Source: Acidovorax sp. Leaf160
GTDB lineage: Bacteria > Pseudomonadota > Gammaproteobacteria > Burkholderiales > Burkholderiaceae_C
Length of the DNA stretch: 64,000 bases
Direction: 5' to 3'
NCBI RefSeq assembly: GCF_001424265.1
Contig: NZ_LMOV01000024.1
Coordinates: 62,001 to 126,000 of the forward strand
Shown here: positions 32,477 through 47,060 of the stretch, one piece after another
Numbering within the stretch: the stretch's first letter is position 1
Layout of the letters: each line of letters begins with the position of its first letter
Program-made: the position numbers and the translations under genes
The notes under the pieces: model-generated
Databases searched by the model: none
What the model saw: the letters and a program-made list of their open reading frames with translations, nothing else
What the model was told of the DNA's origin: nothing

Positions 32477-34807
32477 TCAACGCCGGGAGCGGCGGGACTT
32501 GGATGCGCTCTTGCCAGCAGGCTTCTTGGCCGGCGCTTTGGCAGGCGCGCTGGCACCACGCGCGGCACGGTCCTTGGCCGCCGCGCTCCGCAAGCGCGAG
32601 CCGCGGCCACTGCGCACGGACGGCCCAGCGTCTTCCTGCCCGGCATCACCGCGTGGGGCACGGGCTGCATCGCCGCCGCGTTCGCGTTCGCGTTCCCGCT
32701 CCCGTGGCGGCTTGGCGGGCGCGTAGGCCTCGCCGTCCTTGACCAGCCGGAAGTCGATCTTGCGGCCGTCGAGGTCCACCCGGCTGACCTGGACGTTCAC
32801 GCGGGTGCCGATGGCGTAACGGATGCCGGTCCGCTCGCCGCGCAATTCCTGGCGCGCCTCGTCGAACTTGAAGTACTCCCCACCCAGTTCGGTGATGTGC
32901 ACCAGCCCTTCTACATACATGGCGTCGAGGGTGACGAAGATCCCGAAGCTGGTCGCGGAGCTGACCACACCGGAATATTCCTCGCCCAGATGCTCGCGCA
33001 TGTACTTGCATTTCAGCCAGGCCTCCACATCGCGACTGGCTTCATCCGCCCGCCGTTCGTTGGCGCTGCAATGCAGGCCGGCGGCTTCCCAGGCCTGAAG
33101 TTCCTTGGAGGGCGGAGGAGCCTCCTTGCGGGGCTTGTTGGATGGCGCCGCCACGCGGGCGGCCAGCCGCTTGGCGAGCTTGGCATGCGCCTCCCCCGGC
33201 GTAGGCAGCGCCGGCAGCTTGTATTTCGTCTGACCCAGAATCGCCTTGATGACCCGGTGCACCAGCAGGTCCGGGTAGCGGCGGATGGGGCTGGTGAAAT
33301 GGGTATAGGCCTCGAACGCCAACCCGAAGTGGCCGCTGTTCACCGGCGTGTAGATCGCCTGCTGCATGGAGCGCAGCAACATGGTGTGGATCTGCTGGGC
33401 GTCAGGACGGTCCTTGGTCGCGGCGGCGATGGCCTGGAATTCCGACGGCTTCGGGTCGTCGCCGATGGTCATGCCCACGCCCATGGCTTTGAGGTAATTG
33501 CGCAGGATCTCCTGCTTCTCGGGCGTGGGGCCCTCATGCACGCGGAACAGGCCCGGCTGCTTGCCTTGCGCGATGAAGTCGGCGCTGCAGACGTTGGCCG
33601 CCAGCATGGCTTCCTCGATCAGGCGGTGCGCCTCGTTGCGCGTGCGCGGCACGATCTTTTCGATCCGGCCGTTGTCGTCACAGATGATCTGCGTTTCGGT
33701 GGTCTCGAAATCGACCGCACCCCGCACCTGCCGCGCCGCCAGCAACGCGCGGTACACGTCGTGCAGATGAAGCAGATCCTGCACGCGGGCCTTGCGTTTG
33801 GTGGCCTCCGGCCCGCGGGTGTTCGCCAAAATGGCCGCGACCTCGGTATAGGTAAAGCGCGCGTGGCTGTACATCACGGCCGGGTAGAACTGGTAGGCGT
33901 GCACCTCCCCCTTGGCCGTGACCAGCATGTCGCAGACCATGCACAGCCGCTCCACCTCAGGGTTCAAGGAGCACAGGCCGTTGGACAGCTTCTCCGGCAG
34001 CATCGGAATGACGCGCCGGGGAAAGTAAACGCTCGTCGCGCGGTCATAGGCATCGATGTCGATGTCGCTGCCGGTCTCCACGTAATGGCTCACGTCGGCA
34101 ATGGCGACCAGCAAGCGCCAGCCCTTGGCACGGCCCACCTTGGCGGGCTCGCAATAGACGGCGTCGTCGAAATCGCGGGCGTCCTCGCCGTCGATGGTGA
34201 CCAGCGGCACGTCGGTCAGGTCGACACGCTTGCGCTTGTCCTGCGCGCGCACCTTGTCGGGCAGCGCCTTGGCCTGCGCCAGGCAGGCCTCCGAGAACTC
34301 GTGCGGCACGCCATATTTGCGCACGGCGATCTCGATTTCCATGCCGGGGTCATCGACCTCGCCCAGCACTTCCTTGATGCGGCCCACGGGCTGACCGAAC
34401 AGCGCCGGCGGCTCCGTGAGTTCGACCACCACCACCTGGCCCGGCTTGGCCGAGCCCGTGGCACCCTTGGGTATCAACACATCCTGGCCATAGCGCTTGT
34501 CTTCGGGCGCCACCAGCCAAACGCCGCTTTCCTGCAGCAGCCGGCCGATCAGCGGCTGAGCCGGCCGCTCGACGATTTCTACCACGCGGCCCTCGGGCCG
34601 TCCCCGCCGGTCCTGGCGGACGATGCGCACCCGCACGCGGTCCTTGTGAAGCACGGCCCGCATCTCGTTGGGCGGCAGATAGATGTCTCCCTCGCCGTCG
34701 TCACGCAGTACGAACCCGTGGCCATCCCGGTGCCCCTGCACGCTGCCTTCAATTTCTTCGGTGCTCGACGTCTGATTGGCGCCGGTGTTCAATTTTTTGA
34801 TATACAA
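32477..34807 (-). CDS. rnr: Ribonuclease R
   Basis: A 776-residue 3'-5' exoribonuclease for structured RNA. After the cold-shock domains ([20 protein letters not shown]) come the RNB catalytic domain with [18 protein letters not shown], then [14 protein letters not shown], an S1 domain ([20 protein letters not shown]) and a Lys/Arg/Ser-rich tail with an RERERERER tract. The N-terminus is short compared with E. coli RNase R, lacking its helix-turn-helix region. The best start is TTG 34807 with GGAAAG eight bases upstream, exactly at the edge of the group II intron. TTG at 34792 is an alternative. Confidence 0.93.
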
Positions 34808-34808
34808 T
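34803..34808 (+). promoter_or_regulatory. -10 hexamer of the first tRNA-Leu transcription unit, separated by the intron
   Basis: TACAAT is followed by CTAAGTCTTTCC and then the intron. The unbroken second tRNA-Leu copy has TATAAT followed by TCGATCTTTCC and TGAAAT. Removing the intron restores the same 17-base spacing between hexamer and tRNA, so this is probably the original promoter of tRNA-Leu copy 1. A clear -35 is not seen. Confidence 0.55.
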
Positions 34809-35839
34809 CTAAGTCTTTCCGTGCGACACGTAACGCGTCGTTCTGAATGAGGTAGCTGCCTCGTTAAATATTAGCAATTTACTCACCCGCTTCGGCGGGC
34901 ATAAAACAGATGCTCGGCTCACCCTGATCATCCCACAGCTTGATCCGCAAGGACGGGCTTTAATAGAAGATAGACGGGCAACCGAGCTATCTCATCAAGG
35001 TCACTCTATCGAGTGACTTTATATTGAAAGCGGCAGAGATGCCGTTTGTGGCGCTCGCGCACATAGCCGACGAGCACGCCACAAGCGGAGCTTTGTCTGC
35101 CGCGTGCGCAGCTCGTTTCTGAGTAAACCATTCAGAGCGTCCTGCTCTGATCTGCCTTGTCATACATCCGGCAACGGACCGCTGTGACCTCGCGTGCGAC
35201 CGCGAGTAGCCTAGAGTGGCATGCAGGGACAGTAATGACCCTGTGTGAAGCCCACTCAACAATGAACCCCTACTTCGGTAGCAGCTACGCCCGCGAGGGT
35301 GTAGCTGGAAGCTGCCAGCAGAAAGGCGGCCGAGGGGGCTAGGCTAGTTCCATATGGGCAACATAAGTGAACCATCGTCAGAACCTGGGTGAAGATTGAA
35401 CGGCCAAATCTGCTGATAGGCCGTAACCAAAAGGTGCGCTGCTGGCTATTCCTGTGGAAAGTGGGAATACGTCGTCAATATGCAGCCCCAGGAAAGATGG
35501 GCCCTAATTGGAGAGATCGAAGCGGCGCAAACCGCCAAGATCGGTAGATCAGGGAACGTGGTAAGCCCCACCACCCGCCTGCGTGCTTCGGCACGCAGGC
35601 AGGGAAGCCGCAAGGCAACCTGTTGGATGAGGGGGTATGGGATGGTGGAAAAAGCGAACGGCTGCCTGTAACGGGTGGCATAGGGGTTCCAACTTTGCCC
35701 CAACGCGAAAGCGTGCAAACTTCCACTTGGTGCAACCGTCGCGAGACGGCTGTCTAAGTTCAATCGACCCCGAAGGGATGCTCCATTCCCCTTCGGGGGA
35801 GAAGTGCGTCCTCGATGGGTCTAACTCAAAGAGGAAAGC

Positions 35840-37564
35840 ATGAGAAAACTTGCTGGCAACAGCGAGCCTGCATCCTCACGCGAACCCGCCAACTGGCACG
35901 CCATTGACTGGCAGCGAGTTGAAAGGTTTGTGCGAACGATGCAGCAAAAGATCGCGAAGGCGACGCAAGGACAGGATTGGCGGCGGGTGAAAGCACTCCA
36001 ACGATCCTTGATCCACTCGCACTCCGCCAGAGCTCTGGCGGTAAGGCGGGTGACCGAAAACCAAGGCAAGCGAACGGCAGGGGTCGATCGCCAACTTTGG
36101 GACACTCCGCTCCTGAAATGGGCGGCAATCGGTTTGTTGAAACAGCAACGAGGGTATAGGCCCCTGCCCTTGCGGCGGGTCTACATCCCAAAATCGAACG
36201 GGAAGGAGCGCCCCCTGGGCATTCCAATCATGTTCGACCGGGCCATGCAGGCACTTCACCTGCTAGGACTAGAGCCCGTGGCGGAAAGCACGAGCGACCC
36301 GAACTCCTATGGGTTCAGGAGAAATCGCTCCACGGCCGATGCCATGGGCCAGATATTCGTCTGCACATCCAAAAAGGCTTCGGCCCCATGGGTGCTGGAG
36401 GCGGACATCCGAGGCTGTTTCGACCACATCAACCACGACTGGCTGGTGCGCCACGTCCCCACGGACAAGGCAATCCTGCGCAAGTGGCTGAAAGCCGGGG
36501 TGATCCACCAGGGTCACTTCTCGCCGACTGACGAAGGAACGCCGCAAGGCGGCATCATTTCGCCAACCTTGGCGAACATGTGTCTGAACGGGCTCGAATC
36601 CGGCTTGGCCGCGCACCTCAAAGCGCGGTTCAGGTCTCGCGCCTTGAAGCTGAAAGTCAATGTAATCCGGTACGCAGACGATTTCGTCATCACCGGCGAC
36701 TCCAAGGAGTTGCTGGAGACAGAAGTCAGGCCGTGGATCGAAGCATTCCTCGCACAAAGAGGGTTGCAACTGTCGCCGGATAAGACAAGGGTCGCCCACA
36801 TTGATGACGGCTTCAACTTTCTGGGGTGGAATTTCCGCAAGTACGCGGGAAAACTACTCATCAAGCCAAGCAAGAAGAACGCGCAAGCGCTCTACAGCAA
36901 GGTCAGGGAGATCGTAAAGACACATGCGATGGTGAAGCAGGAGGATCTCATCGCCAAACTGAACCCTATCCTTCGGGGCTGGGCGCAGTACCACCATCCG
37001 GTGGTGGTAAAAGAAACCTTCAACAAGATGGACAACTTGATCTACTGGCGGCTTGTCCGCTGGGCGAGACGGCGCCATCCAAACAAGTCCCCGAAGTGGT
37101 GTGCGAACCGTTACTGGCAGCGCATCAACGAGAGGAATGAGTTCGCTGCAACCGTCAAGACGGCAGAAGGTCCATTCACGAAAAAGCTGTTGAAGCTCGC
37201 GGATACAGAGATCGTGAGGCACGAAAAGATCAAGGCGGACTACAACCCCTTCGATCCATCGTGGGAAGCGTACGGCGAGAAATTGAGGACGAAGCGCATG
37301 CTGCGAAGCATCGCGTACAGGGCCGAAACAACCATGCTGTATGTGTCCCAGGCGGGGCAGTGTGCACTTTGCGCACAGCCCTTGGACTACGAGAAGGGAT
37401 GGCACGACCACCACATTGTTCGCAAAGTGGATGGCGGGTCGGATGCTCTCTACAACCGGGTGCTACTGCACCCGGTCTGCCACATCAGACTGCACGCCTT
37501 GGGTCTGACGGTAGCGAAACCGGCCCCACATGGGGCTTCGAGTCCGAAGAAGGCGAAAACTTAG
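35840..37564 (+). CDS. ltrA: Group II intron reverse transcriptase/maturase with HNH endonuclease domain
   Basis: A 574-residue multifunctional protein for splicing and retrohoming. Reverse transcriptase blocks are seen in order: VERFVRTMQQKIAKATQG, GYRPLPLRRVYIPKSNGKER, GFRRNRSTADAM, the catalytic YADD at residues 278-281 (NVIRYADDFVITG), and LGWNFRKYAGKLLIKPSKKN. The maturase domain X follows (ILRGWAQYHHPVVV). The C-terminal HNH nuclease has CALCAQPLDY, HDHHIVRKVDGGSDALYNR and LHPVCH. It appears full length and intact. GAGGAAAGC lies just upstream of the ATG. Confidence 0.95.
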   Translation: MRKLAGNSEPASSREPANWHAIDWQRVERFVRTMQQKIAKATQGQDWRRVKALQRSLIHSHSARALAVRRVTENQGKRTAGVDRQLWDTPLLKWAAIGLLKQQRGYRPLPLRRVYIPKSNGKERPLGIPIMFDRAMQALHLLGLEPVAESTSDPNSYGFRRNRSTADAMGQIFVCTSKKASAPWVLEADIRGCFDHINHDWLVRHVPTDKAILRKWLKAGVIHQGHFSPTDEGTPQGGIISPTLANMCLNGLESGLAAHLKARFRSRALKLKVNVIRYADDFVITGDSKELLETEVRPWIEAFLAQRGLQLSPDKTRVAHIDDGFNFLGWNFRKYAGKLLIKPSKKNAQALYSKVREIVKTHAMVKQEDLIAKLNPILRGWAQYHHPVVVKETFNKMDNLIYWRLVRWARRRHPNKSPKWCANRYWQRINERNEFAATVKTAEGPFTKKLLKLADTEIVRHEKIKADYNPFDPSWEAYGEKLRTKRMLRSIAYRAETTMLYVSQAGQCALCAQPLDYEKGWHDHHIVRKVDGGSDALYNRVLLHPVCHIRLHALGLTVAKPAPHGASSPKKAKT

Positions 37565-37607
37565 GGTACAATCTGAGTCTTCGCACAATACGGATAGTGT
37601 TGTGCTT

Positions 37608-37641
37608 GAGCCGGATGCGGTGAAAGTCGCAAGTCCGGTTC
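37608..37641 (+). ncRNA. Group II intron domain V (catalytic core)
   Basis: Exactly 34 nt, starting GAGCCGG, with the GAAA tetraloop region and closing CCGGTTC. The pairing GAGCCGGA/TCCGGTTC and GCG/CGC around GTGAAAGT matches the conserved bacterial domain V. Its integrity suggests the ribozyme is active. Confidence 0.9.
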
Positions 37642-37687
37642 TTAGGGGGGGATGGTTCAGTAATGAACTGTCCCTACCCTCCTGAAA

Positions 37688-37772
<85 letters not shown>

Positions 37773-37807
37773 AGTTTAACGAGAACCCGTCAGGGTTTCG
37801 AAAAGAA

Positions 37808-37835
37808 AAGCCGCTTTGCACAAAGCGGCTTTTTT
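37808..37835 (+). terminator. Terminator after tRNA-Leu copy 1
   Basis: A perfect 11-bp stem AAGCCGCTTTG / CAAAGCGGCTT with a 2-base loop is followed by a run of six Ts. Confidence 0.9.
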
Positions 37836-37962
37836 ATTTTCCGGAACGTTTCGCGCTGAGCTTCCCCGCCCGGCGCGCCCCTCACCCGGCGCCTAGGGTC
37901 ACCGACTCCTGCGGGCGAAGACACAAAAACAGGAATTTGCGTGAACGGGCAAAAATATGTTC

Positions 37963-37968
37963 TATAAT
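37963..37968 (+). promoter_or_regulatory. -10 hexamer of tRNA-Leu copy 2
   Basis: A consensus TATAAT is 17 bases upstream of the mature tRNA, within an AT-rich patch following AAAAATATGTTC. The -35 is unclear (TTGCGT is 20 bases away). Confidence 0.7.
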
Positions 37969-37985
37969 TCGATCTTTCCTGAAAT

Positions 37986-38070
<85 letters not shown>

Positions 38071-38080
38071 AATTTGATAA

Positions 38081-38110
38081 AAGCCGCTGTGAACACAGCG
38101 GCTTTTTTTT
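38081..38110 (+). terminator. Terminator after tRNA-Leu copy 2
   Basis: Stem AAGCCGCTGTG / CACAGCGGCTT with a 2-base loop is followed by eight Ts. It differs from the first tRNA terminator by compensatory changes in the stem. Confidence 0.92.
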
Positions 38111-46872: not shown

Positions 46873-46877
46873 AGCGG

Positions 46878-47019
46878 GGCACGCGACTGGCGATAGGCGC
46901 GGCGACCTTTTCAGGGCGCCGCCGCTGACGTGGAATCCGGCAGGAGGCACCTCCTGTGACCACTGGGAAGCGTGCCGCACCGATCTCGTCGCCGTGCGTT
47001 CCGCCGTTCGCCTGGGCAG
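46878..47019 (+). promoter_or_regulatory. ZTP (pfl) riboswitch upstream of glyA
   Basis: The aptamer's conserved blocks occur in order: GCGACTGGCG, TGACGTGGAA, ACCACTGGGAAGC and the distal pseudoknot strand CGCCTGGGCA. P1 is a perfect 7-bp stem GGCACGC / GCGTGCC. A variable hairpin (GGCG.. / ..CGCC) enlarges the internal junction. The class senses ZMP/ZTP, which builds up when 10-formyl-tetrahydrofolate is short, and turns on one-carbon genes such as glyA. A small hairpin CCCTT/AAGGG follows at 47020-47034, before the glyA ribosome binding site AGGA. Confidence 0.9.
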
Positions 47020-47060
47020 CCCTTCTTGCAAGGGACACAAGTTCATAGGACTGCCACGCC

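Follow-up and report, generated by a model that had tools for sequence, protein, structure and literature searches.

We predict that a lineage of group II introns targets bacterial promoters. The intron that led to this proposal lies in a 64,000-nucleotide stretch of Acidovorax sp. Leaf160 (contig NZ_LMOV01000024.1, positions 62,001 to 126,000, forward strand; hereafter the window), between the -10 hexamer of a tRNA-Leu(CAG) gene and the mature tRNA sequence. Based on sequence comparison, we consider it highly probable both that this element is a mobile group II intron of the IIB type and that its lineage targets the core of sigma-70-type promoters, which it would recognize by pairing its exon-binding sites EBS2, EBS1 and EBS3 with the flanking DNA. 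As a rule, members of this lineage are inserted directly past the -10 box, as seen at 29 of 31 distinct sites.

Insertion sites across the lineage

Relatives of the intron were collected by a pattern scan of one genome per species in 84,980 species, which yielded 94 relatives. The best 80 of these, together with the window and one further locus (L002), formed a survey set of 82 loci, 69 with a readable 5' end and 13 without. Grouping by hand, according to flank and downstream gene, gave 31 distinct sites, each represented by its first locus. This grouping supersedes an earlier one by flank alone, which had merged some distinct sites and gave 25 clusters, 23 of them with a TAnnnT hexamer at 9 to 12 nucleotides (nt). 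With the hand grouping, TAnnnT precedes the intron by 9 to 12 nt at 29 sites: by 10 nt at 21 sites, 11 nt at four, 9 nt at three and 12 nt at one, the TACAAT of the window. The background frequency of the pattern was 2.2% in 1,860 flank segments of spacing 8 to 13. A tRNA leader had been regarded in the original prediction as an odd niche for a group II intron; the place is indeed unusual, but it is no accident at one tRNA gene.

An out-of-sample set, composed of genomes of the order and class drawn evenly, contributed 28 further loci besides the window's own. Six of these have an intron-encoded protein (IEP) identity of at least 62%, and all five with a readable 5' end (L159 lacks one) have TAnnnT at 10 or 11 nt, in flanks that by eye are new to the first set. 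The hexamer is also found 10 nt upstream of a plasmid copy inside the promoter group (L120), and at 9 to 12 nt it is found in none of four outgroup introns (L121, L123, L124 and L094).

A quick maximum-likelihood tree was built from 79 IEPs, leaving out the evenly drawn loci. The promoter-inserted introns in the tree, plus L055, form one group of 70 rows with a support of 92 in the Shimodaira-Hasegawa-like approximate likelihood ratio test (SH-aLRT). Outside this group are L121 from Serratia, L074 and L082, the plasmid introns L123 and L124, and L005, L006, L085 and L094. Near neighbors inside the group occupy different promoters, and thus targets have shifted many times. The closest named copy, in Acidovorax delafieldii (L019), has 98% IEP identity.

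Several observations weigh against promoter targeting as a strict description of this lineage. Two of the 31 sites are non-promoter by the hexamer measure: L082, which is without the TAnnnT pattern, and L055, which is missing the first T of the hexamer and where the intron lies, by eye, directly after the TAA stop codon of an OmpA-like reading frame. Only weak enrichment of the -35 element was seen, with at least four matches to TTGACA in 32% of sites compared to 14% of the background, and a consensus promoter scan of 34700-38100 in the window found no full promoter. The spacing range of 9 to 12 was picked after the first set had been viewed, and the tree that delimits the group is a quick one with a support of 92. 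Among the more distant loci of the fresh set, TAnnnT is also present at two of the 20 with a candidate 5' end, both at 9 nt (L154 and L177), and for this reason the border of the clade is unsure; two other distant loci are without a candidate 5' end, and L157 repeats L005. Finally, the EBS1 of the guaB site (L083) was taken from a doubtful alignment.

Proposed recognition of the -10 element by base pairing

By base pairing, the ribozyme seems to recognize the -10 element. When every flank position was scanned blindly against every domain I column over the 31 sites, three leading signals emerged, linking 35456-35461 with positions -6 to -1 (EBS1), 35393-35397 with -13 to -9 (EBS2) and 35494 with +1 (EBS3). 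EBS1 pairs at six of six positions in 23 of 30 sites and at five of six in the other seven (shuffled mean, 2.85). When EBS2 is anchored to the hexamer, it pairs at six of six positions in 21 of 29 sites, five of six in seven and four of six in one, compared to a mean of 3.64 and a maximum of 4.28 in the shuffled control. At the eight sites with a spacing of 9, 11 or 12, EBS2 forms five to six pairs when anchored to the hexamer versus one to two when anchored to the insertion point. Because EBS2 pairing tracks the hexamer when the spacing changes, the RNA seems to be registered on the -10 element, with a gap between the EBS1 and EBS2 pairings that flexes. With regard to the EBS2a-IBS2a pair and assignment to subgroup IIB1 or IIB2, there are single-column covariation signals, for example between -14 and 35391 (z 5.2), and none was established as EBS2a.

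One alternative is that the introns land widely and survive only just downstream of promoters, where they are transcribed and cause little harm. Many sites do lie upstream of housekeeping genes, and the weak -35 signal also speaks for such a scenario. However, survival alone fixes neither the 10-nt spacing at 21 of 31 sites nor the tracking of the hexamer by EBS2, and outgroup introns without the hexamer motif exist. We consider this explanation improbable, and favor targeting of the promoter core.

We propose three pairings: that of EBS2 covers the last four hexamer bases and the two that follow, that of EBS1 covers the six bases up to the insertion point, and that of EBS3 involves the first base on the far side. 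The intron would then reverse-splice into the sense strand 9 to 12 nt, usually 10 nt, past the hexamer and, given the predicted start site, a few nt inside the transcribed region. Transcription from sigma-70 promoters starts approximately 7 nt past the -10 hexamer. A start at this distance would give a 5' exon of approximately 4 to 8 nt, near the intron-binding site IBS1 alone, and would place IBS2 outside the transcript. Lying upstream of the predicted start, IBS2 could serve DNA targeting and not splicing, and we infer that retrohoming, and not splicing, maintains the match of EBS2 to the -10 box.

According to section 4 of PMC9294222, the EBS2-IBS2 interaction helps to open the DNA duplex. 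In the lineage described here, this duplex would be the one opened by RNA polymerase: the single-stranded non-template strand of the transcription bubble, from about -12 to a few nt past the start, would be the strand and the stretch that EBS2 and EBS1 need. We speculate that these introns constitute a fourth target class, in which the -10 element is read by the ribozyme and the transcription bubble serves as its point of entry, mobility follows promoter opening, EBS2 functions in homing only with splicing on IBS1 alone, and a spare promoter is brought for the displaced gene. Taken as a whole this model is tentative, and we think it possible rather than probable. Alternatively, the hexamer may be part of a homing site read by EBS2 and the protein, with promoters being hit since such motifs are conserved there and with RNA polymerase uninvolved. 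The chances of this explanation seem to us about even. As in ordinary IIB introns, EBS2, EBS1 and EBS3 all vary together with the site, and the non-promoter sites pair in the same manner, with EBS1 at six of six positions in both, EBS2 at five of six in L055 and four of six in L082, and EBS3 in both. On the other hand, even though EBS2 follows its site at variable bases, the T, A and T of the -10 box are retained at 29 of 31 sites; we regard this as a weak argument.

Borders and anatomy of the intron in the window

The intron is 2,862 nt long, starts 12 nt past the -10 hexamer and ends 5 nt before the tRNA; a divergent RNase R gene lies on one side and a tandem pair of tRNA-Leu(CAG) genes on the other (Table 1). 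Joining the bases around 34821-37682 gives TCTTTCC-TGAAA (the hyphen marks the junction), the same sequence as at the second tRNA copy. We searched 17 genomes of the window's genus, which leaves 16 congeners besides the window's own. In all 16, the empty site GATATACAATCT(A/G)AGTCTTTCC-TGAAA(G/T) is continuous before the same tRNA, and the tandem second tRNA is present. A DNA search with the whole intron gave a single match within the window's own genome. The GTGCGACACG at 34821 does not vary among the 10 sequences aligned, the window included. The 5' exon and the intron share a terminal TCC, and therefore DNA comparison alone could place both ends 3 nt farther upstream; the register is set by the GTGCGAC start and by EBS3. 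The 5' border of the intron is 34820/34821.

The location and borders that the original prediction had given, in the leader of the tRNA-Leu promoter, agree with the Rfam and ARAGORN matches, the position of the reverse transcriptase (RT)/maturase open reading frame (ORF) and the 12-nt spacing, and the junction that it anticipated in relatives without the intron was found in the 16 congeners. It had also considered a 5' end at 35194. An intron truly starting at 35193, with the preceding 370 nt being foreign DNA, could be proposed because the Rfam domain I model RF02012 begins at 35188 and GTGCGAC occurs at 35193. We regard this as extremely unlikely and rejected it. The inner GTGCGAC lies in a hairpin loop and differs in L002 and in L025 (the same as L003), both of which keep the outer one; EBS1 pairs, at six of six positions, with the bases before 34821; and the empty sites of the congeners refute a DNA insertion of the 370 nt.

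The ORF at 35840-37564 contains the RVT_N, RVT_1, GIIM and HNH domains and matches TIGR04416 with 368 bits (cut-off, 300). The group II splice-site consensus is GUGYG at the 5' end and AY at the 3' end. GTGCG is present at the 5' end. At the 3' end, the window and several relatives have CC and many others AC, and EBS3-IBS3 pairing supports this border in 30 of 30 sites. EBS1, EBS2 and a separate EBS3, which pairs with the first base of the 3' exon, are all present, as in group IIB. Membership in class C was rejected, given the HNH domain and the presence upstream of a -10 hexamer instead of a terminator.

Domain I has a long 5' stretch, to which the late start of the Rfam domain I model can be attributed. 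Among first-set members of the promoter lineage, the RT match lies 882-1290 nt past the 5' end (for L002 the ORF start was placed at a fixed distance, and its figure is thus no measurement), and in L153, a fresh member of this lineage, the open frame lies approximately 780 nt past the 5' end. The distance to the ORF or RT match is only 602-638 nt in five outgroup introns (L005, which is the same as L157, and L121, L123, L124 and L094). Because it is 477-918 nt in the other distant fresh loci, the long 5' stretch is a difference of degree. The non-promoter members L055 and L082 also have the long form.

Outside the intron locus, the window contains a ZMP/ZTP riboswitch at 46873-47024 on the plus strand, with 43.3 bits compared to a gathering score of 39.

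Table 1. Positions in the window of the intron, its predicted pairing elements and the flanking genes
Feature	Position	Strand	Evidence and remarks
RNase R gene, divergent	32477..34807	-	NCBIfam TIGR02063, 783.7 bits; start codon position provisional; start region adjoins tRNA-Leu promoter
-10 hexamer TACAAT of tRNA-Leu promoter	34803..34808	+	Kept in 16/16 congeners
IBS2 (CAATCT), last four hexamer bases plus two	34805..34810	+	6/6 pairs with EBS2
IBS1 (CTTTCC), last six bases of 5' exon	34815..34820	+	6/6 pairs with EBS1; predicted transcript start in or just before IBS1
Whole group II intron, IIB-type exon pairings	34821..37682	+	Empty site in 16/16 congeners; Rfam matches
5' part of domain I: terminal GTGCGAC hairpin and long variable stretch	34821..35187	+	Alignment
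Domain I core	35188..35337	+	Rfam RF02012, 110 bits, full model, gathering level
EBS2 (AGATTG)	35393..35398	+	Blind covariation scan; hexamer-anchored pairing
EBS1 (GGAAAG), hairpin loop	35456..35461	+	Covariation, pairing, hairpin fold
EBS3 (A), pairs with first 3' exon base	35494..35494	+	Watson-Crick in 30/30 sites with a 3' end
Intron-encoded RT/maturase with HNH endonuclease	35840..37564	+	Pfam and NCBIfam
Internal -10-like box TACAAT plus CTGAGTCTT, near copy of host tRNA-Leu promoter; putative promoter	37567..37581	+	15/18 match
Domains V and VI, intron 3' end	37606..37682	+	Rfam RF00029, 64.8 bits, full model, gathering level; fold z -6.9
3' exon leader TGAAA (37683 = IBS3)	37683..37687	+	Sequence reading; EBS3 pairing
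tRNA-Leu(CAG), first copy	37688..37772	+	ARAGORN
-10 hexamer TATAAT of second tRNA-Leu copy; TTTCC-TGAAA junction uninterrupted	37963..37968	+	Sequence reading
tRNA-Leu(CAG), second copy	37986..38070	+	ARAGORN

Displaced host genes and related introns

The genes downstream of these introns are diverse. ARAGORN identified tRNA-Leu in the window and L019, tRNA-Tyr 2 nt past the intron in L024, and tRNA-Ser in L064. An NCBIfam scan at 1e-10 covered 26 ORFs, one of them the RNase R of the window and the other 25 downstream ORFs of relatives. Twenty of the 25 had a match, 15 above the curated cut-off (CTP synthase, an FmdB-type protein, ribosomal protein S15, CoaBC, trigger factor, ornithine carbamoyltransferase, PtsN, AhcY, UvrC, phosphatidylserine decarboxylase, DapA, IMP dehydrogenase, a KefC-type antiporter, PurL and SecA, the last at a locus without a readable 5' end, L087) and five below it (LptD, a cytochrome c protein, an aminotransferase, a TPR protein and a CcsB-type protein). 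By name, the host genes include pyrG, rpsO, lptD, tig, guaB, purL, uvrC, dapA and coaBC. Weighing against promoter targeting, five of the 25 ORFs (L032, L044, L058, L066 and L064) had no NCBIfam match at this threshold, and L002 had no recognizable downstream gene. The pyrG site is empty, with the exact junction, in all 17 genomes of the window's genus, its own included. The second tRNA-Leu copy had been suggested to make the insertion tolerable. Relatives are found in the promoters of pyrG, rpsO, lptD, guaB, dapA and coaBC, which are usually single-copy, essential genes, and thus the second copy is not needed to explain tolerance.

The promoter is left intact upstream of the insertion, and hence it would now transcribe the intron. 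The host gene would be expressed by splicing of an unusually short 5' exon, a few nt long and nearly IBS1 alone, and in the window's clade it is probably also expressed from a -10-like box that follows the RT stop codon and precedes domain V. Either tRNA-Leu(CAG) precursor would yield the same tRNA after trimming by RNase P. The original prediction listed transcription across 2.9 kb, splicing and RNase P cleavage of a long precursor as the only routes to this tRNA, which overlooks the putative intron-borne box.

The hexamer of this box (37567-37572) lies just past the RT stop codon. The 18-nt stretch that starts with it matches the host flank at 15 of 18 positions, compared to a cross-site maximum of 12 for this region. 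A copy of the intron's own host promoter, with at least 13 of 18 matches, was found in four of 30 sites (15 in the window, 15 in L025, 14 in L069 and 13 in L026), and in two of 870 cross-site controls. In L026, the likeness to the host promoter seemingly extends, by eye, into the 3' exon. A TAnAAT box is present 36-49 nt before domain V in all nine members of the window's subclade that have a domain V (the subclade has ten members in the tree, and the tenth, L020, is truncated), and also in L083. These findings suggest that part of the family carries a replacement promoter. Against this, the same test gave no copy of the host promoter at 26 of 30 sites, and five neighboring introns do not show the TAnAAT box: L069, L070 and L067 have TAGACT at 52 nt before domain V instead, and L077 and L086 have nothing similar there.

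Alternatively, the internal box may be an exon mimic or a structural element of domain IV rather than a promoter, a reading to which we assign slightly less than an even chance. It holds IBS1 letters in L025, L026 and L069, it is placed between the ORF and domain V, and the consensus scan found no -35 partner for it. Arguing for a promoter, the copied stretch is that of the host promoter, with the seeming continuation in L026. A decayed intron remnant before rpsO in another genome (L007, approximately 335-450) bears on the same point, as it retains a TATAAT box upstream of domains V and VI; this remnant is perhaps a domesticated promoter.

A spare promoter for a displaced gene would be comparable to the spare tRNA that sister lineages bring for the tRNA gene that they split. 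Sister group II introns split tRNA-Gly genes a few bases 3' of the anticodon in L006, L162, L166, L167 and L175 (genomes G069, G243, G718 and G792). The joined halves were recognized by ARAGORN as tRNA-Gly in all five, and within each intron, directly ahead of the RT match, lies an intact tRNA-Gly whose anticodon is that of the split gene (CCC in four introns and TCC in L166). In a congener (G003; L145, 4678-4767), another group II intron splits tRNA-Ser(UGA) in the anticodon loop, by eye, and carries an intact tRNA-Ser(UGA) just before domain V. Two further records bear on the family. CP075775.1 (H1), filed as a Pseudomonas aeruginosa plasmid, is 2,837 bp long, approximately the size of the intron, and encodes its RT; it is either an assembly artefact or circular intron DNA. 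The deposited genome of Pseudomonas phage phi3 (L122) begins with an intron of this family (approximately 2-2848) followed, by eye, by a tRNA with the anticodon CAT, and this intron probably belongs to a host tRNA promoter.

Among described elements, group IIB introns of Escherichia coli and other plasmids, which we take to be EcI5-like, have IEPs approximately 52% identical over nearly the full length and annotated as group II RT/maturase. The window intron shares the EBS1, EBS2 and EBS3 logic of IIB introns such as EcI5. The outgroup introns examined (L121, L123, L124 and L094) differ from it in having no promoter motif at the right distance and in the shorter spacing of the 5' end from the RT match noted above. 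The closest solved IEP is the maturase RT of PDB 6me0 (E 1e-167 over residues 13-553), presumably from the intron ribonucleoprotein of Thermosynechococcus, an intron for which we know of no promoter targeting. Group IIC (class C) introns likewise target a transcription signal rather than one gene, theirs being the terminator and that of the window's lineage the promoter. Passages of PMC4424553 and PMC3522654 describe class C introns as having no endonuclease (En) domain and only EBS1 and EBS3. Class C-attC introns likewise recognize a class of functional DNA motifs, in their case the attC sites of integrons (passages of PMC4424553). The same 2015 review names three specificities of bacterial group II introns, namely homing sites, terminators and attC sites (PMC4424553), and a passage of PMC6003770 states that bacterial group II introns seldom interrupt housekeeping genes. 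PMC8919778 analyzed the distance of introns to terminators, and the word "promoter" is absent from its main text. Our full-text literature search found no description of promoter-targeting group II introns, and a prior description elsewhere is possible. The lineage comprises group IIB introns with a proposed target specificity that was not found described in the literature searched.

If this proposal is correct, a promoter-homing lineage distributed across Burkholderiales, Pseudomonas and others would represent a fourth target specificity of group II introns. It would explain how an intron can sit before essential genes, and it would disentangle the functions of EBS2 in DNA targeting and in splicing, which normally go together. 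One possible use of such introns could be the placement of cargo at transcription start regions. The lineage also offers a direct test of whether group II introns exploit DNA that has been opened by RNA polymerase.

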